Of a stretch of DNA of 64,000 nt, positions 43,468-53,990 are shown piece after piece (within the stretch, counting starts at the first letter, position 1; every line of letters starts with the position of its first letter). The position numbers and the translations under genes are program-made. The notes under the pieces are model-generated. The model worked only from the letters and a program-made list of their open reading frames with translations, was not told the DNA's origin and did no database searches. The stretch covers positions 1,674,001 through 1,738,000 of the forward strand of contig NZ_CP053015.1 in assembly GCF_012979535.1 (NCBI RefSeq), read 5' to 3'. The DNA comes from Sphingomonas lacunae. GTDB taxonomy: Bacteria; Pseudomonadota; Alphaproteobacteria; Sphingomonadales; Sphingomonadaceae.

Positions 43468-44694
43468 TCAGCGCGGGATCTGCCAGCGGATGCGCGTCGT
43501 GTAGCTGCCGGTTGAGGGATTGCCGTCGCGATCGAGTGCCGGGGTAAAGCGGGCGCGCCGTTGCAGGGCTGCGCAGGCGGCGCCGTCGAGTGCCGCATCT
43601 CCGCTGCTTTGTGTTATATCGCAGCGCGTTACGCGCCCTTCCGGCCCGATCGTCAGGTTGATATGGGTGGTGCCTTCGGTTCCGGCCCGCAAGGCCGAGG
43701 CTGGGTAATCACTGGTGCTTACCCAGCGCGCCGGATTGCCCCGTGGTGCTGCTTCGCGGGACCGGTCAACGATGGCGGGCTCAAGAATGGCAGCCGGCGG
43801 TGGTGCGGCGACCGGTGCAGGGCGGGTGAGATCAGCAATCCGTGCATCAATCCGCTGTTCAACGCACGAGCGGCTACTGCAACTGTTGATCGCCAAGCGC
43901 AACGTGGTTTCCGGCGACTCCCCGCCGATAGCGGCTCTGGCAAAGGCGACTTGCAGGCGCCGGTAGCGCCATTGAACCGCGCTGCACAGTTCGAGCTCGC
44001 GCGGTTGTTCGCTCCAGCTGCGGCATGCACGCGGAATGTCGCGCGGAGCCGGTTCAGGCGCGGCTTTCGGGTTGACTGCCGGCACTGGCGCCTGATCGAC
44101 TGGGGCACTCGCGGGAGCCGGCCCTGCTTCATCCGGGGTGGGGGTGCTGGTTGTTGCTGTGACTGGATCGGTTCCGGTTGCAGCCTCCTCGACCGGAGCG
44201 TCGTTCCACAACCAGATGACCGCGATGGCCAATATGATGACCAGGAAGATGACAAATCCCGTTGGTACCGGCGGGGTTGGTGACAAGGGATCGGCCGGTT
44301 GAGGTCCGTTGGTGCTGCGGGCGTTGGCACCGCCACCTTCGGCGGGAGGGCGCGAAGAAACAGGAGGAGCGGTCTTTTTGGCAGTCTTGGGCAGCGTGGC
44401 AGCGGCAGGGGGTGGCGGCACTGGTTCCGCGTCGGTGACCGGCGGCAAGGGCTTGGGTGATGGTGCCTGCACTTGCATGGGCGATGTCGGCGCCTGTTGC
44501 ACGGGAGGCGGGGGCGCGAAGCCGAGATCAAGTGTCTGGGCTGTTGTCCGGCGACGTTTGCCGCTGGCCAGAAACAGCGTGACAGGTGTTTCAGGCAGCA
44601 GCACGCCATTCCTGATGAGCGTTTCAGCCTCTTCCCGGCTGTAAACGTGATGGGACTGGCCATTGAGAGAGAAGGAAAATTCCTGCCAATCCAA
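43468..44694 (-). CDS. TonB C-terminal domain protein with GYF_2-like N-terminus
   Basis: A protein of about 408 residues. The N-terminal 60 residues (DWQEFSFSLNG, then EEAETLIRNGVLLPETPVTL) resemble a GYF_2 domain and align with the N-terminus of the DUF805 protein at 53172. A Pro-rich linker leads to one membrane helix (FVIFLVIILAIAVIWLW), another linker, a Cys-containing helical part, and a TonB C-terminal domain (INLTIGPEGRVTRCDITQSS, RRARFTPALDRDG). Two starts are TTG: 44694 has GGGGGA at a good distance and gives an N-terminus like its homologue; 44739 is the alternative. TonB domains contact outer-membrane proteins, so it may couple the locus to the envelope. Confidence 0.82.
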   Translation of the reverse strand: MDWQEFSFSLNGQSHHVYSREEAETLIRNGVLLPETPVTLFLASGKRRRTTAQTLDLGFAPPPPVQQAPTSPMQVQAPSPKPLPPVTDAEPVPPPPAAATLPKTAKKTAPPVSSRPPAEGGGANARSTNGPQPADPLSPTPPVPTGFVIFLVIILAIAVIWLWNDAPVEEAATGTDPVTATTSTPTPDEAGPAPASAPVDQAPVPAVNPKAAPEPAPRDIPRACRSWSEQPRELELCSAVQWRYRRLQVAFARAAIGGESPETTLRLAINSCSSRSCVEQRIDARIADLTRPAPVAAPPPAAILEPAIVDRSREAAPRGNPARWVSTSDYPASALRAGTEGTTHINLTIGPEGRVTRCDITQSSGDAALDGAACAALQRRARFTPALDRDGNPSTGSYTTRIRWQIPR

Positions 44695-44956
44695 TGTTTC
44701 AGTCCCCCATGACCGACCAATCGCCAAAGCAATATCCAAGCCACCGCCAATCGCTCAATGATGGCCAGTGACCAACCATCTTGTCCTTGCAAGTGATGGT
44801 AAATGCAAGACTCACTGGACATATAATCCAGCCGCCCGCCATATTGATCCTGCGAATCGGTTCTTGGAGGATTTTGTGGGCTTGAAACATTCCGTTTCCT
44901 CGCTTTTAGGTACAGCCCTCAGTCCCCTTAAGTGTTGCAGCACGACAAAGCGGAGC

Positions 44957-46414
44957 ATGGGGACGACCATTACTGCCAGTTTGGTGGCATCGTTTGTGCT
45001 GTCGGGATGTGGCGCTGACCGTCCATCCGGCATTGCCAACCAGCTCGACTGTTTCCCCCAGCCGAGCCGCGCGTGGATAGCGCGCACTGGCACAGCGTCT
45101 GACAGCGCAGCCGCTCGCGGGGCAACAGGCGGAGCAACGCTGAAGGCCGCGACCATCTATGTTGACCGGTCGGCGAGCATGATGGGCTATATCGCCGGTG
45201 CAACAACCATGGACCGGCCGTTCCAGGATGTGATCGGCACCTTTCCTGCCAGCCTCGCTGAAATGGGGGTGGAAACCCGTTTCCGCGCCTTTGGCCGGAC
45301 CGTCACGCCGCCCGTTCGCGATGGAGCGGCCCTGCTTAAGCCGGAGCATTATGCCTGTGCCTCACGGGATGATGAAGCCTGTGAGTCGCACATTGATGAT
45401 GTGCTGAAAATTGTCGAAGGTCAGCGCGACCAAATGGCGATCATTGTGACCGACCTTTGGTTCAGCAACAGTTCCGTGGACACCAGTGCACTGGCAGCGT
45501 TGCAGCCCTCCCTGAGGGAGATTCTGAAAGACCGCGCCATTTCTGTCTATGGCATTGCGGCTCCTTTCAATGGCAAGATTTATGATCTGCCCGCCGGGCA
45601 GGGCCAGTTGGGTTCGATGCCCTATGCCGGGACACACCCGCTATATGTGTTGGTGATCGGTCCCGATGCTGATGTCCGCGCCTTTGATACCCGTTTGCAA
45701 CGGTCAGGCTCCCCGGCAATTGCCGCTGGCGTGGCCGAGCGCGGCAGCTGGAAGCGCGCCATCTTTACCGCCGCGCCCACCAATGAAGCCGAACTGGCTG
45801 CCAAGCCACTGAGCGATGGCAGTTCGCCATTGTTCCGGGCAGGGTCGTCCGAAGTGTTCAATGGGCTTGCTGTGCAACAGTTCACCTATAATCCTGACCT
45901 CGACCGTCCGGGCGCGGCGAAGGGCAATTCTGCGACCTTTCCGACATGGAGCGGCCCTGACCCCAGCCTGTTCATACCTCATTCGGTTTGGCAGGGGCCG
46001 ACCCAGCTGCGCGTGCGGGTGTGGCGGCGGCGTGACAATCAATGCACCTCGCGGTCCTGGATTGAGCTGAACAATCTGGCAGGTGACTGGCCAAGGGTCG
46101 AACCGGGCGGCAAGGTCGATTTTCATCTGGAGCCTGGACTGGTGCGACAGACGTTCCGTCAGGAAGGCACCTATGTGCTGACCGGAGAGATGCGCCGACT
46201 GTCAGTGATGCAGGACAATCCGCAGACAGCCTGGATGAAGCAATGGTCGCTGCCGATGGTAGGTGGCAATTATGTCGCGCCATCCGGTCCGATGTTCCCC
46301 ACCCTCAACATCAACGAATTTGGACGCATCCTTCAGGATGCGCTGGCTGACACGACAGAAGCACAATCGAGACCGGTGACCGGATTTACCGTGATGGTCC
46401 ATTCCGCAGACTGA
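44957..46414 (+). CDS. VWA-like lipoprotein
   Basis: A 485-residue lipoprotein: a signal peptide ends with the lipobox VLSGC (C18). A von Willebrand A-type domain follows, with a MIDAS-like DRSASM (D70, S72, S74) on a hydrophobic strand (KAATIYVDRSASMMGYI) and a second acidic motif IIVTDLW (D166). Such domains bind partner proteins through a metal ion. The C-terminal third (residues 290-485) is all-beta-like and unassigned. First gene of the six-gene unit; ATG 44957 is preferred because it alone gives a lipobox at the right place. Confidence 0.78.
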   Translation: MGTTITASLVASFVLSGCGADRPSGIANQLDCFPQPSRAWIARTGTASDSAAARGATGGATLKAATIYVDRSASMMGYIAGATTMDRPFQDVIGTFPASLAEMGVETRFRAFGRTVTPPVRDGAALLKPEHYACASRDDEACESHIDDVLKIVEGQRDQMAIIVTDLWFSNSSVDTSALAALQPSLREILKDRAISVYGIAAPFNGKIYDLPAGQGQLGSMPYAGTHPLYVLVIGPDADVRAFDTRLQRSGSPAIAAGVAERGSWKRAIFTAAPTNEAELAAKPLSDGSSPLFRAGSSEVFNGLAVQQFTYNPDLDRPGAAKGNSATFPTWSGPDPSLFIPHSVWQGPTQLRVRVWRRRDNQCTSRSWIELNNLAGDWPRVEPGGKVDFHLEPGLVRQTFRQEGTYVLTGEMRRLSVMQDNPQTAWMKQWSLPMVGGNYVAPSGPMFPTLNINEFGRILQDALADTTEAQSRPVTGFTVMVHSAD

Positions 46415-46441: not shown

Positions 46442-47005
46442 ATGCGCAAGGAAAGCATCAATTTTGGTCGGCTGGTTGTGCAGTCGCTGCTGGCGATCGG
46501 CATTCACTTCGTGTTCGCCGCTGTGGTGGTCGGGATCGCTTATGTCATGACCAGTGATCCGGGCTATGTTGCCCAGGAAGCACTGGATGCCGCGAACGGG
46601 ACCGAAAATGCCCAGCTCGCGATCGACTATGCGCTGGAAGACGGTTTTGCCCTGTTGATGAACTGGACTGTGCAAGTGTTTATCGCCAGTATCGTGCTGG
46701 CGATCATTTTCCTGGCCAGCACAGCATCGCTAAGTCCGCAGATTGAAGAAGATGCGCGCAGCCGCAAGCCGCTGTGGGCTTTCCTGCTCATCGCCCTGAT
46801 TGTGCTGTCCATGATCATGTGGTGGATCAATGTGCTTGATTCTGGAATGGCGGCCCTGCTGGTCGGAACAGCCTACATCGTGACCGGTTTGCTCGGGGGG
46901 CTGTTGCTGGTCCTCGCCTTTCACTTCGCCACCGCGACCTGTGTCAAGCCGACAATGCAGCGTTCCGTGCCGTTGTCGGCCTTTTTGCCGAGCTTTGGAA
47001 AGTAA
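46442..47005 (+). CDS. four-helix inner-membrane protein of the locus
   Basis: A 187-residue protein with four predicted membrane helices (about 11-35, 70-93, 111-132, 138-165) and a short polar segment between helices 1 and 2. Six bases separate its stop from the tubulin-like gene. I do not recognise a family; its position suggests that it anchors or channels the complex at the inner membrane. Confidence 0.75.
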   Translation: MRKESINFGRLVVQSLLAIGIHFVFAAVVVGIAYVMTSDPGYVAQEALDAANGTENAQLAIDYALEDGFALLMNWTVQVFIASIVLAIIFLASTASLSPQIEEDARSRKPLWAFLLIALIVLSMIMWWINVLDSGMAALLVGTAYIVTGLLGGLLLVLAFHFATATCVKPTMQRSVPLSAFLPSFGK

Positions 47006-47011
47006 GCACCC

Positions 47012-48583
47012 ATGACCAACATATTGATCGGTGTCGGTGGCACCGGAGCAAAGATTGTCGAGGCCATTTTGGTGATGGTCGCGGCGGGCAACGGGCCTGA
47101 CCATCTGCATGTCGGCCTGGTTGATCAGGACGGGGCCAACGGCAATCTGCAGCGTACCCGTGACCTGCTTGCCCTGATGGGTGAGATGCGTGACCAATGG
47201 GGTGTGGCACAGGCCCGCAACGCCTTGAACTGGTCAGCCGACAATGGGCCGGCGATTGGCCGTACCAGGGTCTTGCCGTTGTTCGTGCAGCCGAGGCTCA
47301 ATGCGCTTTGGATGCCGAACCAGGGTTCAGCCACGCTGAAAAGCATGATCGGCCAGAACCTCTCCGATGAGCATAATGACCTGTTCGACATGCTGTTCAT
47401 GGACAATGGTGATGAACAGGATCTGGGTCTGGGCAGGGGCTATCGTGGCCGGGCCCATGTTGGTTCGGCAGCCTTTGTGACTGCCCTGACTGACCAGAAT
47501 AACGACTTTGTCGGCCGCATGCAGGAACTGATGAACGATCCGCAGCAGGGCAAGGTCAACATTTTCATCGTCGGTTCGGCCTTTGGCGGCACCGGGGCTG
47601 CCGGTTTTCCGACCTTGGCGCGCAAGCTCAACCGGATGCGCAATGATCCAACGATGACCAATGGCCGCAATGTGAACCTCGGCGGCTTGTTGATGCTGCC
47701 CTATTTCACGTTCGACAAGCTGGATGAAAAGGAGGTGTCAGCGGTCAGCCCCGACGAACTCATGCCCAAGGCCAAGATGGCGCTGGAATATTACGACAAT
47801 CTGTTCACCCATGAACGGACATTTGACCGCTTTTATATCAGCGGCTGGCAACCCTTCTTCGCGCTGGGTTATGGTGAGGACGGGGGCCAGAGCCAGGCAA
47901 ATCCGCCGCTGCCCGCAGAGATTTTTGCGGCCACCTCTGCACTGGACTTCTTCACCAAGGATTTTTCGCAGGAGGAGCGCGACGCGCTGGGGACCGGCAA
48001 GGTACCGACAATGCGCATGTCACGCACCGGCGGACAGTTGCTGTGGCAGGATTTTCCGCAATCGGAAGTCGCGCTGGACCGTCTTGGTCAGTTGCTGCGC
48101 TTTGCCGCCTATTGGCTTTATCTTGTGGAGCCGCAATTGCGGGTGCCGGACAAGTTTCTTGACCCCAACTGGGCCTATCGCCTCGCCAACAAGGCCAGCA
48201 TCGAAGAGTCCGAGCCGGAATTGCGAACCCTGCGGACCCTGTTGTTCCATATTCTCACCTGGGCCGCGACCATGGAGCATATGGGACGGCAGCATGGTCC
48301 CGGCGTCGGCTGGGGCGAAGGGCTGTGGTCGCTCAGCCTGTTGTTGTCTCCGCATCATCAGGCGACGCCAACAGCGCCGGTGGCGCTTGCCCCCGGCTTT
48401 GGCCGGGGACATTTCATGCAGATTTTCAATCAGATGATCCGTTTTGATGACCGGTCTCCGGTAACCCGTGCCGGCGACGCCATTTACAGCGAGCTGAGCG
48501 CCAAGGGGCTGGATGTGCCTGGCGGTCATGCCGGCATTGGCCGCGTTGTCGCCGCAACCTATCAATCTGTCCGAGTGAGGTAA
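47012..48583 (+). CDS. tubulin/FtsZ-like GTPase-fold protein
   Basis: A 523-residue protein with marks of the tubulin/FtsZ superfamily. Its start, MTNILIGVGGTGAKIVEAIL, matches the T1 loop glycine motif; HVGLVDQDGANGN fits the T2 region; IFIVGSAFGGTGAAGFPTLA (signature at 188-200) fits the GGGTGxG tubulin signature loop with one glycine changed to phenylalanine; GGLLMLPYFTF fits the T5 region. The C-terminal half is helical and much longer than FtsZ. It resembles the Pfam Tubulin_2 group of bacterial proteins with unknown function. GTP binding is likely; polymerisation is not predictable. Next gene four bases away. Confidence 0.82.
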   Translation: MTNILIGVGGTGAKIVEAILVMVAAGNGPDHLHVGLVDQDGANGNLQRTRDLLALMGEMRDQWGVAQARNALNWSADNGPAIGRTRVLPLFVQPRLNALWMPNQGSATLKSMIGQNLSDEHNDLFDMLFMDNGDEQDLGLGRGYRGRAHVGSAAFVTALTDQNNDFVGRMQELMNDPQQGKVNIFIVGSAFGGTGAAGFPTLARKLNRMRNDPTMTNGRNVNLGGLLMLPYFTFDKLDEKEVSAVSPDELMPKAKMALEYYDNLFTHERTFDRFYISGWQPFFALGYGEDGGQSQANPPLPAEIFAATSALDFFTKDFSQEERDALGTGKVPTMRMSRTGGQLLWQDFPQSEVALDRLGQLLRFAAYWLYLVEPQLRVPDKFLDPNWAYRLANKASIEESEPELRTLRTLLFHILTWAATMEHMGRQHGPGVGWGEGLWSLSLLLSPHHQATPTAPVALAPGFGRGHFMQIFNQMIRFDDRSPVTRAGDAIYSELSAKGLDVPGGHAGIGRVVAATYQSVRVR

Positions 48584-48586
48584 GTC

Positions 48587-51500
48587 ATGCCTATCGCCAA
48601 CCTCCCTCCGCAGCATCCAGGCTCGGAAGTTCCGCCGCAACAGGTCGCAGGCCGTTGGGAAAATGCCGACGTCGGGCTGTTGACCATTGGCCGCGGTCTT
48701 AGTGTCGACAATGAACGCGCCTTCCTCGATCCTGAGGAGCCTGTTCGTGCCATCCCCGATCCCTGGGCGCAGGCGCGTACCTTTGGTGAGGCGCTGCTTG
48801 ACCGCAAGCATACCATCCATGCGCTGGTCATGCCGCAGTGGCGCGGCCTGCTTGCCATGTTCGCACTGCAGGAAATGGCCGGGACAGCCTATGAGCTGAT
48901 CAGCCGTTCAGCGGCCCTTTCGCCGCCGGGCAGCAACCGGTTCAGCGATGTGCTGCGCGACCTGCGGCCAGAGGTGGCGATTGGCGGACAGGCGCATCTG
49001 TGGGAATCGGTTTCAATCTTCGATTGCAGCGGTCGGCCGGTTGCCATGACCAACCCGATCTGTCTGGTGTCGCCCGGTCGATCGGTCAATGACCTTGCCA
49101 TCCCACAAATCCCTTGGATGCGTAGTGGTATCGTGGACCCTCTCAAGCTTGAGGGTCCGGACGCGCTTTCGGTCACGCAACTGGTCGTACTCGCCGGTTG
49201 GCTGGAAAAGCTGGAAACCCACCTCCAAAATCAGGGCGGTGACCCCATCGCCCTTCAGATCGCCCAGCTTTTGGCTGATTATGGCAAGGAGATTGAGGCC
49301 GAAATTGGCGAGATTGCCGATATTGAAGTGTCGGTCACGGCATCGAACGAGCAACTGCACCCCCTCTTCGATCCGTTGATGATGCGCGCAACGGTGGCAG
49401 GGGACTTGGACCCCTGGATTTTGTCCCGCACCCGTATCCGGCTGGCGGACAACGTTGCCGGAGAGGGCGGCCATTTCAAGGGCATGATCCTGGTTGATGA
49501 GGCGATTGCCAGGGTACAGGGGGTCAAGCCGCGGTCGTTGTTCGTCTGGGGCCACACGACATTGTCCGAACTGCTGGTCAACCCGGCGTTGTTGGAGGAT
49601 GTGCGGACAAAGGCCATGGAGGAAGGCTGGCTGATCGTCACGGGTGATGACCTGATGACCCGCCGCTTGATCAGGCTGCGGTCGCAAAATGAACGGCACG
49701 GTCCGGAAATCCAGGCGCATCCGTCGAACCTGCGCGACATGTTGTTGCCCGTCAGGCCGGTGGCGCTGTTAACGGGTGGTGGGCCGCTGTCCGGTCGTTT
49801 GAGTTGTCAACTTGGCGGCAATCGTGCTTCGGTGACCTTGTCCATCGTGCTGGAAACCGACCAGCCCGAAGGCCGGCGGATCGACATGACCCGCCATTAT
49901 GTCGAGGATGCCGGTCCGGGGGATTATCTGCTGGTCACAAAGGTCGACTGGCGTGCCTATTATGCCAGCCTGTGGCCGAACTTCCGGTCTTCGGTGTGGG
50001 ACCGTTACTATCTGCGGCTCTATTACAAGCCGGGTGCTGTCGATCAGGCACTGCCCCGCACGGGCCTGTCCTGCGAGCATCTGGTTCGCCAGGTGCAACG
50101 ACATAACTCACCGCAACTGGCCATCAGCAGCCTGCTTGACCTCAATGCCGGTGGCCTGCCCAAGGGTCGGAGCGGTGAGTTTGAGCAGTCGGTTGTACCG
50201 GCGAGCGGCGAATTCCATGACGAGATGCTGTTTTCGAACATGCCGTTCGATGCCATCACCTATTTTGAAGGGAGTGGAGAACGCAGCATCAGCTACGCCG
50301 GCCTTATCCTGACCCCGCTTGAGGTGAAGGAGCCGAGCAGCAACCAGACATCAGTTGTCGCTATCGACTTTGGCACGACCAATACGGTCGCCTGCCTCGA
50401 CCGGGCGGGTTCGCGGCCGATCACGTTCCAGCAACGCCTGTTGTTCCCGATCCGCTCGCGTCATCCCGAAACGCATGAAAATGCGCTGTATGACTTCAGG
50501 ACGAATCTGCCGGCTTTCAAGCCTTCGGAAATGCGCAAGACGCCGACATCAACAGTGGCGTTTGAGCGTTTGCCCTATCAGAGCCATGAGCCGGTCAGCC
50601 TGTTCAAGAATCTGATCTATTTTCATCCTGCCCAGTCGATTGCCGAAGGCGGCGAGGACGAGGAATGGCTCGATTTCCAGCGGATTTACGACAATACGCT
50701 GTTTGGGCTGAAATGGAGCCATGACGAGCGCAAGTCAGCGGCTGCATCCGACTTCCTCGAACAGTTTCTGACGATGACGGCTGCCGAGGTGCTGGCGGAA
50801 TCAAAGCGCAATCCACGTCAGATCATGTGGCGTTATTCCGTGCCCGATGCATTCAGCTCCCGCGAGATGAGCCGTTATCGCGAGCATCTGATCGAACGGG
50901 TGGCGGCGATTTCAACTGATCTGGGTGAAAAGGCGCTCGATGAATTTTATTCGGAAGGGCTGGCGTCTGCGGTTTGTCTCCTTGATGGGTCCAATCTCAA
51001 CGCCAAGGGACTCAACATGGTTCTCGATATTGGCGGCGGCACCACCGACGTCACCATCTGGGAAGCCAAGGAGATACGCTGGCGTGGTTCCTTCCGGATA
51101 GCAGGGCAGGACTTTTTCACCCGCCTGCTTAGCCAGAACCCGGAGATTTTGCACAAGATTGGACTGGATTCCTGGGGCCGCATGTTCGCTGCCGCGGCCG
51201 AGGCGGCGTCTGGCAAGGGGCGGGAAAAGGAGCATGTCGATCTCGCCGAACTGCTGTTCAGCGGCACGGGTACACAGGACAGCGATCTCGACCTGCAAAA
51301 GGCGATGGACAAGCATTGGACGCTGACCCTCGCCAAGGGAACCGGAGCGCCTTTGCGCATTGCCGGTCTAACCTTCATCGCCGGGATCGCCTGGTATCTG
51401 GGACGTATCGTCAAGCAATTGATCGCCGATGGTACCATTACCGACCCCGAACTTGCGAAGGTCAGCAGCTTTGCTTTGTGTGGACGCGGTGCCGGCCTCT

Positions 51501-52078
51501 TCAAGCGCATCCATGGCAGGCTGGCACCAGATGACAGCAGCGATTTTACCGCCGCCGTGTCGGTCTTTTCCATCGCGGCGGGCCTCACGGATGCGTCCGA
51601 ACCACAATTGTTCAGCTGGCAGGACGAGAAATTGGAGGTGGTCCACGGCATGCTGGTCGAGCGGCCGACAATCGATCCCCACGTCAAGAGCGGGGCCCGC
51701 CAGGCGCGAACAGACATTCCGGCCGGACTGACGCTGACATTGGCTGACGGCTCCGTCATCGCGCCCGACGCGATTATCACTGGCAGCAGTTTTGATGCCA
51801 AAGTGCGGTCGGTGGGTCTTGACGAGTTCCAGGCATTCATCGACGCGCTTCGCGCCGTTGAGGTGATCAAGCTCGATATGGGCGGTGGCAAGCAGCAGGG
51901 CGTTTGGAAGTCGCTTGAAGCTGCTGTCGAGAAAAGCATTATCGAGTCCAAACAGGAAGCCGGCGGGGAAACACCGGCCTATGAACCGCCTTTCATTGTC
52001 GCCCTCAAGGCGTTGGTCGGGGAATTGGCAGCACCTGCCGAACGGCGTGAACAACGCATCAAGGCGGAGTTGATGTAA
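48587..52078 (+). CDS. giant Hsp70/actin-fold ATPase (SrfB-like)
   Basis: A 1163-residue protein. Its C-terminal half has the three ATP-site motifs of the Hsp70/actin superfamily: phosphate-1 VVAIDFGTTNTVACLD (D594), phosphate-2 MVLDIGGGTTDVTIWE (814-821) and adenosine motif FALCGRGAG (962-970). The first 590 residues have no recognised domain. Domain layout and length recall SrfB-type virulence factors of enterobacteria. It follows the tubulin-like gene by three bases, and its stop overlaps the next start (TAATG). An actin-like and a tubulin-like NTPase made from one transcript suggests a joint mechanical or assembly role. Confidence 0.82.
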   Translation: MPIANLPPQHPGSEVPPQQVAGRWENADVGLLTIGRGLSVDNERAFLDPEEPVRAIPDPWAQARTFGEALLDRKHTIHALVMPQWRGLLAMFALQEMAGTAYELISRSAALSPPGSNRFSDVLRDLRPEVAIGGQAHLWESVSIFDCSGRPVAMTNPICLVSPGRSVNDLAIPQIPWMRSGIVDPLKLEGPDALSVTQLVVLAGWLEKLETHLQNQGGDPIALQIAQLLADYGKEIEAEIGEIADIEVSVTASNEQLHPLFDPLMMRATVAGDLDPWILSRTRIRLADNVAGEGGHFKGMILVDEAIARVQGVKPRSLFVWGHTTLSELLVNPALLEDVRTKAMEEGWLIVTGDDLMTRRLIRLRSQNERHGPEIQAHPSNLRDMLLPVRPVALLTGGGPLSGRLSCQLGGNRASVTLSIVLETDQPEGRRIDMTRHYVEDAGPGDYLLVTKVDWRAYYASLWPNFRSSVWDRYYLRLYYKPGAVDQALPRTGLSCEHLVRQVQRHNSPQLAISSLLDLNAGGLPKGRSGEFEQSVVPASGEFHDEMLFSNMPFDAITYFEGSGERSISYAGLILTPLEVKEPSSNQTSVVAIDFGTTNTVACLDRAGSRPITFQQRLLFPIRSRHPETHENALYDFRTNLPAFKPSEMRKTPTSTVAFERLPYQSHEPVSLFKNLIYFHPAQSIAEGGEDEEWLDFQRIYDNTLFGLKWSHDERKSAAASDFLEQFLTMTAAEVLAESKRNPRQIMWRYSVPDAFSSREMSRYREHLIERVAAISTDLGEKALDEFYSEGLASAVCLLDGSNLNAKGLNMVLDIGGGTTDVTIWEAKEIRWRGSFRIAGQDFFTRLLSQNPEILHKIGLDSWGRMFAAAAEAASGKGREKEHVDLAELLFSGTGTQDSDLDLQKAMDKHWTLTLAKGTGAPLRIAGLTFIAGIAWYLGRIVKQLIADGTITDPELAKVSSFALCGRGAGLFKRIHGRLAPDDSSDFTAAVSVFSIAAGLTDASEPQLFSWQDEKLEVVHGMLVERPTIDPHVKSGARQARTDIPAGLTLTLADGSVIAPDAIITGSSFDAKVRSVGLDEFQAFIDALRAVEVIKLDMGGGKQQGVWKSLEAAVEKSIIESKQEAGGETPAYEPPFIVALKALVGELAAPAERREQRIKAELM

Positions 52079-53121
52079 TGGACAGGCGTTGGCTTTGGGG
52101 CATTTTGGGTGTCGTGGCCCTGCTATTGCTGGCGGCAATATTTGTCGTCAGCGGACGCAATGACCTTGGCGTCCTAGAGCGTGCTGAACCGCAGTCGCGT
52201 GCTGTGACTCTGGATATGCCGGTGAAGGCCCCGCGGCCAATCGCTGAGGCTGCGGGCCCTTCGGTAGCGCCCAGAGCCGTGGCATCGAAAAATGACGGCC
52301 AAACCCTGGGGATTTCGGTCGCCATTTCCTTTGCCTTTTCGTTGATCGCCGCATTTGCAGGGGGCTGGCTTGGTCGCCGCAAACTGCTCGGCGAGTTGTC
52401 CGAATTGCGCAGCGACATGGACAGGTTGAAACTCGCCCAGAGCGCGGAACGGACCAAGGAAGCGGCGGAGCAGGCCAACTGGGCCAATTCTCCACAGCAT
52501 GGGACAATGTCCCCGCAACAGGCTGTGGGCGGATTTTCCCCGGTTCCCCGGTCCAAGCCGACAGGATGGGGCATGATACCTCCGGCGGACAACCGCTCCG
52601 ACCACGCGGGCTTGACCGGTCATGCCGCTCCGCCGCCCGCTGATCCACCTGCAGTTCCTGTTGAAATGCGCGCACCCCCTCCGGTTGATCCTCATCAGGC
52701 CGCCAATCAGGCAGTTGCCGATTTCCAGAACCAGTTCCAGCAATTCCTCGCTGGCGCCAATGTCAGCCAAAAGGCTTATGACAGCTTTGTCAGCCAGTTC
52801 GGGCGAACCCGTCTGGTGCACGCGGTGGAAGGCGGGCAGGTGCAGCTTGCCAGCGAGGCTATGGGCACTGAAAAGCTGCTCGCGCTGCAATTGAACGGAC
52901 ATGACCGGATCATCCTGCTGCCTTCATTTTACTTTATCAGCGATTTCAGCAGTTCCTTTGCGAAGAGCCGCGATGTGCCGCGTGAGATCAAGGCAGCCTA
53001 TGACATTGTCGCCGGCGGCAGTGGTCAGTTGCGGATCAACCGGCTTGGCCTTGTACAGCAACAGGGGGACATTTTGCTGCTCGCCGAGCCGCGCGGCGAG
53101 CTGGCCGGCTTCATTGACTGA
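52078..53121 (+). CDS. membrane/coiled-coil protein of the locus
   Basis: A 347-residue protein. Helix 1 (residues 5-25) and helix 2 (about 78-100) span the inner membrane; a coiled-coil segment follows (LLGELSELRSDMDRLKLAQ), then a Pro-rich linker and a C-terminal globular part of about 130 residues rich in Phe/Gln (NQFQQFLAGANVSQKAYDSF, HDRIILLPSFYFI). Translation is coupled to the ATPase gene by TAATG. No known family recognised; topology puts the C-terminus in the cytoplasm if the N-terminus is cytoplasmic. Confidence 0.72.
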   Translation: MDRRWLWGILGVVALLLLAAIFVVSGRNDLGVLERAEPQSRAVTLDMPVKAPRPIAEAAGPSVAPRAVASKNDGQTLGISVAISFAFSLIAAFAGGWLGRRKLLGELSELRSDMDRLKLAQSAERTKEAAEQANWANSPQHGTMSPQQAVGGFSPVPRSKPTGWGMIPPADNRSDHAGLTGHAAPPPADPPAVPVEMRAPPPVDPHQAANQAVADFQNQFQQFLAGANVSQKAYDSFVSQFGRTRLVHAVEGGQVQLASEAMGTEKLLALQLNGHDRIILLPSFYFISDFSSSFAKSRDVPREIKAAYDIVAGGSGQLRINRLGLVQQQGDILLLAEPRGELAGFID

Positions 53122-53171
53122 CAAGCGCTGCCGATGTCCGTTCCGCTTTGCAGGGAAGGCCCTTTGCGCGG

Positions 53172-53990
53172 ATGACTGAATCTGATTGGATAGATTTTTC
53201 CTTCCGCTTTCAGGGGGAGGGGCATCTGATATGCTCATCAGACGACGCCTGGGCCCATATTGCTTCGGGTGCGCTCACCCCCTCGACCCGCGTCACCGCC
53301 TTTCTGCCAAGCGGACGCAAGGTGATGGATGCCGGTGATCTGCCGCACTTGCGGTTTGCCTCACACAAGGCTGCAACGGAGCCAGTCGACACCGCTCCGA
53401 CACACGGCCTGGTCAGCGATGGCGAGGTGGAACAGGCGGCAGCGGAGCCCCTGTTGCAATCGACGCAGGCAGCTGGACCCGAGGCCATGGAAACGTCAGA
53501 GCCTGCCAAGCCAATAGGTCGCAAGGCTCCACCTGTATCTACCGTGTTCAAAAAGGAACGTGTGACGGCAGCGCGGGCGCCTGCTCCGGCCGGACCGCCT
53601 CCGCGCTGGCTGGCGGACCCGGTGTGGATTCAGCCATTGCACCGCTATGCGGAGTTTGACGGTCGTTCGACCCGGCTCGAATATTGGAGCTACAGCCTCG
53701 CACTCTTCATTGCGCTGCTGGTGATCCTCCTTTTCGCCGAGGCCGTCGGTGACACCCTGGGAGCGATTGTCGTTACCATCGTGGTCCTCGCAACGATCAT
53801 CCCGCATGTGGCGCTCACAGTGCGCCGATTGCATGACATGAACGCATCGGGATGGCTGCTGGTGCTGATGATTGTGCCGCTGGTGATTGGTGGGCCGGTG
53901 GCGACGTTGGCCAACATCGGATTGCTGGTGATCATGACTTTGCCGGGAACAGCGGGGCCGAACAGCTACGGGCCACCTTCGTTGCGCTAG
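53172..53990 (+). CDS. DUF805 membrane protein with GYF_2-like N-terminus
   Basis: A 272-residue protein. The first 60 residues (DWIDFSFRFQGEGHLICSS, then ALTPSTRVTAFLPSG) align without gaps to the N-terminus of the TonB-like protein at the other end of the locus. A linker with Ala/Pro/Glu follows, then a DUF805 domain (HRYAEFDGRSTRLEYWSYSL, VRRLHDMNASGWLLVLM) with four membrane helices. The ATG at 53172 is chosen; a TTG at 53148 is also in frame. Last gene of the unit; its stop overlaps the convergent PepSY gene by four bases. Confidence 0.82.
   Translation: MTESDWIDFSFRFQGEGHLICSSDDAWAHIASGALTPSTRVTAFLPSGRKVMDAGDLPHLRFASHKAATEPVDTAPTHGLVSDGEVEQAAAEPLLQSTQAAGPEAMETSEPAKPIGRKAPPVSTVFKKERVTAARAPAPAGPPPRWLADPVWIQPLHRYAEFDGRSTRLEYWSYSLALFIALLVILLFAEAVGDTLGAIVVTIVVLATIIPHVALTVRRLHDMNASGWLLVLMIVPLVIGGPVATLANIGLLVIMTLPGTAGPNSYGPPSLR

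Follow-up and report, generated by a model that had tools for sequence, protein, structure and literature searches.

A tubulin-like protein with an altered signature loop and its actin/Hsp70-like partner in Sphingomonas lacunae

Introduction

The window is the 64,000-nucleotide stretch of Sphingomonas lacunae DNA analysed here, and its source genome is a single 2.98-Mb contig. At 47012..48583 on the forward (+) strand, the window encodes a tubulin-like protein in which the T4 signature loop is altered. This locus raises two questions: is the altered loop peculiar to one protein, and what might a tubulin-like protein with such a nucleotide site do? The protein is referred to as TUB, and the actin/Hsp70-like partner encoded beside it as ACT. 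The whole family has the loop change, and it matters less than two other features, the absence of the T7 loop and the actin-fold partner. An initial annotation, made from the sequence alone, described the T4 loop and overlooked that T7 is absent, that the partner has an actin/Hsp70 fold, and that the cassette is conserved. Features of the window are on the forward strand unless stated.

TUB is a variant of the Tubulin_2 system

TUB is a 523-amino-acid protein with an ATG start. Its N-terminus begins MTNILIGVGGTGAK, and the sequence IVGSAFGGTGAAGFPTLA is also present. The AF2 model of TUB, built from an alignment of 62 sequences, has a pLDDT of 89.8 and a pTM of 0.94. Its best match among solved structures is FtsZ (5mn8_A; Z 17.3, rmsd 3.2, 202 residues aligned), and the best 50 structure matches listed are all, by title, FtsZ, CetZ, tubulin, or microtubule entries. 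Structure prediction had been proposed as a check by the initial annotation; it returned the tubulin/FtsZ fold, and the non-tubulin fold that would speak against the annotation was absent. Foldseek gave three matches at E <= 0.001, every one a microtubule entry, with a best E of 6.5e-4 and a modest TM of 0.18-0.30 of the query among the matches listed.

The sole Pfam match of the TUB protein is Tubulin_2 (PF13809), at 29.9 bits with a cut-off of 27, and it covers just positions 123-210 of the 356 in the profile. In a six-frame search of the genome, Tubulin_2 reached 21.0 bits on TUB, which is under the cut-off, with the match limited to profile positions 122-210. Among the 62 relatives, 60 match Tubulin_2 at E <= 0.01 and 20 match Tubulin (PF00091). 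An hhalign comparison of the TUB family with 24 FtsZ sequences was not significant (E 0.16); nonetheless, it sets T3, T4, and T5 of TUB in the expected register. A PDB sequence-profile search with TUB returned no tubulin at E <= 1. Superfamily membership of TUB therefore rests on Pfam and the model, by which TUB is predicted to have the fold of the FtsZ/tubulin GTPase domain. Chance similarity or a wrong reading frame was ruled out by the Tubulin_2 and Tubulin matches in relatives, the model, and the structure match. A ThiF-like Rossmann identity (NCBIfam PRTRC_ThiF, 13.7 bits with a cut-off of 144.75) was rejected because the TUB model matches FtsZ/tubulin.

FtsZ/tubulin matches commonly span model residues 1-359. 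Many FtsZ matches stop near FtsZ residues 225-266, others near 300. The C-terminal part had been described as a 300-residue region that is not FtsZ-like; it is indeed unmatched, but it amounts to ~165 residues. The longest helices in the model have 26-27 residues. We file TUB as a variant of the Tubulin_2 system that is neither FtsZ nor tubulin nor a standard FtsZl1.

The altered T4 loop is a family trait

The T1 loop, GVGGTGAK, is located at residues 7-14 (47030..47053), and G9, G10, and G12 are found in 62/62 relatives. The T5-like loop, LPYFTF, is located at residues 229-234 (47696..47713) and keeps LPYF in 62/62, so both loops are conserved as the initial annotation had it. The T3-like loop, GYRGRAHVGSA, is placed at residues 143-153 (47438..47470) in the hhalign register, which is non-significant alone. 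Within this loop, R145 is found in 53/62 relatives, and R or H is found at position 147 in 61/62.

The T4 signature loop, GSAFGGTGAAGFP, is placed at residues 188-200 (47573..47611) by the family alignment. TUB residues 187-200 are VGSAFGGTGAAGFP, and the loop region reads GSAFGGTGAAG, confirming the altered loop that the annotation had reported. Compared to GGGTG(S/T)G, the FGGTGAA of TUB has three changes: F replaces the first G, A replaces S/T, and A replaces the last G. The reported replacement of a glycine by phenylalanine was correct, whereas the statement that the fourth position is alanine was imprecise, since the aligned loops differ at three positions. Among the 62 aligned relatives, S189, F/Y191, G192, G193, G195, A196, and A/S197 are each found in 62, T194 in 61, and G198 in 60. 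The family-wide loop is FGGTGA[AS]. Homologues keep the altered loop: [FY]GG is kept in 62/62 aligned sequences and in 89/89 of a wider set composed of 83 TUB ORFs, five viral-contig copies, and a fusion.

The patterns used in the family scan included the T4 loop, and its conservation hence carries a risk of circularity. The T1 search pattern is found in 43/80 genome-scan ORFs, and 12 of these are without the loop pattern. All 43 keep [FY]GG, with T next in 42 and M in one; therefore, loop conservation in these ORFs is independent of the loop search pattern. The altered T4 loop is the consensus of a widespread family and is no quirk of the window protein. Three FtsZl1-type Tubulin_2 proteins (L091-L093) read xAGGTGx at T4, so the first glycine is also missing outside the TUB family. 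Judged from these sequences, an aromatic residue ahead of GG marks the TUB family among the proteins compared.

The T7 motif is missing from TUB

T7 is the catalytic loop in FtsZ and tubulin and is used to split GTP. The T7 motif NxDxx[DE] is found between residues 300 and 370 (H7 onward) in 0/62 TUB relatives, compared to 24/24 FtsZ. When the stretch is extended to residues 300-523, it is found in 1/62. In the region 60-260 residues past T4, the pattern occurs in 7/89 TUB sequences at scattered positions, compared to 24/24 FtsZ, and we read these scattered matches as chance. Two conserved motifs are located in this part of the protein. QxN (residues 295 and 297; 47894..47902), ahead of the helix taken as H7, is invariant in 62/62 relatives, from which we infer a possible base-recognition site. 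WxDxP (residues 345-349; 48044..48058) has W in 62/62, D in 51/62, and P in 62/62, and is a candidate T7 replacement by sequence register only. Estimates of the T7 position disagree: the sequence register leads to 345-349, whereas the structural ranges lead upstream, to about 316-338, with little conserved. The absence of T7 is a stronger ground than the T4 change for expecting different hydrolysis, and an altered nucleotide cycle in TUB is plausible.

ACT is an actin/Hsp70-like partner

ACT is a 1163-amino-acid protein encoded at 48587..52078 (+), starting 3 bases past the TUB stop codon. Its model has a pLDDT of 84.0 and a pTM of 0.77. Residues 587-1038 (50345..51700) match Hsp70, MreB, and actin at Z 20-23 and, from this match and the conserved residues, form an actin/Hsp70-type ATPase domain. 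D594, E790, D814, and G966 are found in 43/43 sequences of the alignment. They are each found in 69/69 of a wider set, and G817 in 68/69; besides the alignment, this set takes in every ORF of at least 900 aa, the copies on viral contigs, and the fusion protein, and it includes divergent members. We read D594, E790, D814, and G966 as marking the phosphate-1, connect, phosphate-2, and adenosine motifs. By its model, ACT belongs to the actin/Hsp70 ATPase superfamily and has an intact active site.

No family model in Pfam or NCBIfam reaches its cut-off for the window ACT, and the lightly probed N-terminal ~580 aa matched no known family. An FtsA identity was rejected at 14.5 vs 31.8 bits in Pfam and 14.7 vs 175.85 in NCBIfam, both under the cut-off. 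An SrfB identity (PF07520) was also rejected, with no match for ACT at E <= 0.1 and a match in 1/43 relatives at E 0.068. The ACT profile matched 377/398 genomes of the phylum; besides two true ones, the matches listed score <= 34.1 bits. Judged from a PDB profile search, we take the low-scoring matches to be of MreB, FtsA, and Hsp70 type. ACT was rejected as an independent marker because such matches occur in most of the 398 genomes.

TUB and ACT are linked and have matching trees

ACT is directly downstream of TUB in 65/77 loci with enough sequence. The 12 loci without an adjacent ACT are all from selenomonads, including Quinella, which we take to be a selenomonad. Of 11 exceptional selenomonad genomes searched, nine carry a full-length ACT at another locus (653-685 bits), a tenth has two ACT fragments, and the last (G678, a 1.3-Mb draft) has TUB with no ACT found. 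ACT was found elsewhere in the genomes of selenomonads L056 and L059 and was not found in that of L050. In six exceptional genomes, the ACT gene is without other cassette genes in the 9-15 kb examined. A single sample of 398 genomes from the phylum contained three with TUB: two have a full-length ACT (955 and 1138 bits), and the third carries a TUB-ACT fusion.

The fusion is encoded at L146:4203-9500 (-) in genome G348 of the same phylum. It is 1766 aa from the likely ATG in an open frame of 1931 aa. The TUB front scores 60.7 bits (GVGGSG, NFGGTGSG, LPWF), and the ACT back scores 56.4 bits (DFGTSN, DVGGGTTD). Its T4 loop has F and, later, the canonical S-G. Pfam gave no Tubulin_2 on the fusion, and HSP70 (13.9 bits) and MreB (12.2 bits) were both under the cut-off (E <= 0.1), so assignment of the two halves depends on motifs and the family HMMs. 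Adjoining the fusion gene is a gene that scores as vWA-like (27.1 bits). Among 78 genomes of the family of G348, there is one other match, at 18.6 bits and with internal stops. No plasmid record matched the fusion, and no other TUB-profile match was found among 229 genomes of its class.

Paired trees of TUB and ACT from 62 loci have 41/59 splits in common, and of the 39 TUB splits with support, 37 are also present in the tree of ACT. The TUB-ACT distance correlation is 0.95, compared to 0.11 for the largest of 999 permutations, and shared species descent may contribute to this agreement. Locus L037 has two successive TUB-ACT pairs on a single contig.

The cassette encodes a vWA-like lipoprotein and a membrane protein

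The order of the cassette is vWA-like lipoprotein, 4-TM protein, TUB, and ACT. The small membrane protein (46442..47005, 187 aa) has four TM helices by hydropathy, at residues 15-33, 79-97, 111-129, and 139-157. The vWA-like protein (44957..46414) has a likely ATG at 44957, within an ORF that opens with GTG at 44768, and carries the lipobox LSGC together with a DxSxSM MIDAS-like motif and a TD motif. In its family, D133, S/T135, S/G137, and D229 are each found in 50/50 members. A lipobox-like motif or a hydrophobic segment is found in the first 120 residues of 59/63 members over 380 aa. Pfam found no vWA in the window protein and found it in 1/9 relatives, at 14.2 bits compared to a cut-off of 27. 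A PDB profile search returned nothing convincing (best E 0.032). The identity of the lipoprotein rests on the motif, and it is therefore called vWA-like.

HMMs of the window genes were searched against 82 sources, namely 81 loci and the window itself. The small membrane protein was matched in 76, ACT in 67, the vWA-like protein in 64, and a 347-aa protein in seven, window included. The membrane-protein gene is upstream in 73/80 loci, and the vWA-like gene in 55/68. In ten cyanobacterial loci (L010, L041, L042, L045, L047, L049, L052, L074, L084, and L090), the vWA-like gene lies upstream of the three remaining cassette genes and is encoded on the other strand. The 347-aa protein (52078..53121, +) overlaps the last base of ACT and has hydrophobic segments at residues 6-24 and 77-95. 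Further out are a DUF805 gene (53148..53990, +) and a divergent TonB_C gene (43468..44739, -), which flank the cassette and have a common N-terminal domain (35% over 96 aa, E 4e-9). ORFs that resemble these two flanking genes cluster in other loci.

In some relatives, the cassette is followed by genes for OmpA (44 bits), a weak MotA-like protein (16.1 bits, under the cut-off), HSP70, or other membrane proteins. The families in 108 flanking ORFs include HSP70 in five, SH3_3 in four, LytR-CpsA-Psr in three, and TerD in two, among the 25 of 57 families listed. In selenomonads L050, L056, and L059 and in L012, TUB has two further neighbours a few kb away: a kinase-like gene and a small vWA gene that resembles TerY by eye.

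The family is sparse, widespread, and present on some plasmids and viral contigs

In a protein search, TUB was found in 5/199 genomes of the host family, its own genome included. A profile scan of named bacterial genomes yielded 456 TUB relatives, of which 79 loci were kept. The relatives are found in alphaproteobacteria (with Pelagibacter), a Competibacteraceae, cyanobacteria, selenomonads, an Oscillospiraceae, and Poribacteria, as well as in Aminicenantes, acidobacteria, Bacteroidetes, an Ignavibacteriaceae, Calditrichia, a Nitrospirae, and Dethiosulfatarculus. By our reading of the names, they span about ten phyla. Among the Pelagibacteraceae, loci L024, L025, and L027-L030 keep the cassette, with L024 cut by a contig end, and have the loop SSIFGGTG. 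A trypsin-like neighbour, identified by Pfam in L027, clusters across these same loci. No near DNA match was found in E. coli genomes.

Five cyanobacterial plasmids carry TUB relatives: three from Picosynechococcus, one from [Synechococcus], and one from Gloeothece. The profile scan also found diverged cassettes on five viral contigs (L163-L167). TUB adjoins ACT in 5/5, and the vWA-like HMM matches three. The L163 copy is downstream of a terminase gene, and the L165 copy is downstream of relaxase and integrase genes. A phage tubulin (PhuZ-like) identity of TUB was rejected, with no phage record at E <= 0.01 and an empty single-sequence scan of viral contigs. In a Foldseek comparison with viral models, TUB had no match at E <= 0.001, and the best named tubulins there were phage ones.

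To the right of the cassette is an S1-domain gene, taken as rpsA, which was matched in 21/21 genomes of the genus. A clean empty site was not found: in six relatives examined, the neighbours on the cassette side of the S1-domain gene differ, and the boundary of an insertion cannot be drawn for this reason.

Proposed function and alternatives

We lean, a little beyond even confidence, toward a membrane-linked complex in which a tubulin-fold protein and an actin-fold protein form a functionally obligate pair, with TUB as the tubulin-fold half. Because TUB lacks the loop by which FtsZ and tubulin split GTP, it is probably a switch that operates together with ACT and not an ordinary filament. TUB would bind GTP or another nucleotide through T1-T5. 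Unlike FtsZ, TUB without T7 would fail to trigger hydrolysis in a like neighbour. Its role would be that of a switch or scaffold under nucleotide control that assembles mainly with ACT, the presumed active ATPase and driver of the cycle. The pair would be tethered to the envelope by the 4-TM protein and the vWA-like lipoprotein, which may relay a signal or load between the periplasm and cytoplasm. A bolder version, which we offer tentatively and would sooner doubt than accept, is a new bacterial machine. In it, a tubulin-fold and an actin/Hsp70-fold NTPase would form an obligate heteromer; TUB would have lost self-activation, its nucleotide state would be set by ATP-driven ACT, and the envelope anchors would feed in a periplasmic signal.

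The sparse distribution of the family would fit another role. TUB-ACT could be an NTP-dependent regulator of an envelope-sensing anti-invader response, similar to the GAP1-N2 GTPase systems or Zorya. This is unlikely, yet it would account for the patchy occurrence (5/199 family genomes and 3/398 phylum genomes), the copies on cyanobacterial plasmids and near terminase (L163) or relaxase and integrase (L165) genes, the OmpA and weak MotA-like neighbours in Poribacteria, and TerD in 2/108 flanking ORFs. Tubulin-domain and vWA genes are linked in such systems, as far as the accessible text describes them (Kaur et al. 2020, PMC7159879). However, among six window cassette proteins, PADLOC matched ACT alone, at 14.6 bits, and neither a GTPase nor an FNIII family turned up in the window cassette. 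Each defence model was found in <= 2/108 flanking ORFs at E <= 1e-8, the OmpA/MotA-like genes of Poribacteria being outside the 108. A defence island is unsupported by these 108 ORFs, which leave some neighbours uncovered.

The other two alternatives turn on the nucleotide site itself. TUB could be a true dynamic filament that polymerises, hydrolyses GTP via other residues (e.g., R145/R147 of T3 or D347), and remodels membrane as proposed for FtsZl1. The GTPase fold and loops are retained, and the accessible text on FtsZl1 proposes membrane remodelling while leaving filaments open (PMC2875224); we consider this improbable, as the T7 motif is absent from the aligned stretch in 62/62 and D347 is not invariant (51/62). 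At the other extreme, TUB could be a pseudo-NTPase that has lost nucleotide binding and serves as a structural part of a chaperone-like ACT complex. T4 and T7 are both altered in TUB, ACT has a full ATPase site, and Hsp70-family genes are found in 5/108 flanking ORFs. However, G9, G10, G12, S189, G192, G193, G195, and A196 are kept in 62/62, which is hard to explain without a ligand; this is the least credible of the readings.

If the bolder version is right, a mixed tubulin-actin cytoskeletal or switch complex would be carried across phyla and on mobile elements. The two great families of filament formers are those with the tubulin fold and those with the actin fold, and here a gene pair and one natural fusion tie them together in organisms from cyanobacteria to Pelagibacter. 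With no catalytic loop in its tubulin half, the pair allows a direct test of what a tubulin fold can do when GTP hydrolysis is not self-activated.

Comparison with known systems

No description of this tubulin-actin cassette was found in the literature searched, with supplements and most subscription journals outside its reach. The OmpA and weakly MotA-like genes that follow some relatives' cassettes invite comparison with ZorAB of Zorya; these genes are absent from the window cassette. FtsZ-FtsA is an analogy, in which a tubulin-fold protein and an actin-fold protein cooperate at the membrane. Unlike that pair, TUB is without T7, ACT is ~1160 aa and under the FtsA cut-off, and the source genome encodes its own FtsZ at another locus.

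In GAP1-N2 systems, the core is composed of GTPase, GAP1, and FNIII proteins, and the tubulin-domain and HSP70 themes are non-overlapping in the accessible text (Kaur et al. 2020, PMC7159879). These systems resemble the TUB cassette in having a tubulin-domain gene, membrane parts, and a vWA gene, the cassette gene being vWA-like by motif, and an HSP70 theme exists among them. The TUB cassette differs by pairing the tubulin fold with the actin/Hsp70 fold. Pfam and NCBIfam found no GTPase or FNIII family among eight proteins in and around the window cassette, and GAP1 itself may lack a model.

As far as the accessible text goes, FtsZl2 keeps T1, T4, T6, and T7 and is without linked genes (PMC2875224). 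It is similar to TUB in having a C-terminal part of unknown kind with no coiled coil, whereas TUB is without T7 and strongly linked. Most FtsZl1 proteins are composed of a tubulin-like domain, an extended coiled coil, and a helical C-terminal domain, and their T6-H7 elements could not be identified, according to the accessible text (Makarova and Koonin 2010, PMC2875224). With FtsZl1 and Tubulin_2, TUB shares the N-terminal tubulin-fold domain, a neighbouring gene that is vWA-like by motif, membrane proteins in the operon, and T6-H7 elements that escape identification. In contrast, TUB is 523 aa without an extended coiled coil, whereas the FtsZl1-type matches are in open frames of 1111-1540 aa, and GGTG is preceded by F instead of A in TUB. 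No partner with an actin/Hsp70 fold is mentioned for FtsZl1 in the accessible portion of that paper. The TUB type may include some of the cyanobacterial FtsZl1 members. Tubulin_2 proteins have been treated as divergent and sparse in the accessible text of another study (PMC9871819); if our reading holds, these poorly understood proteins gain a defined partner in ACT.
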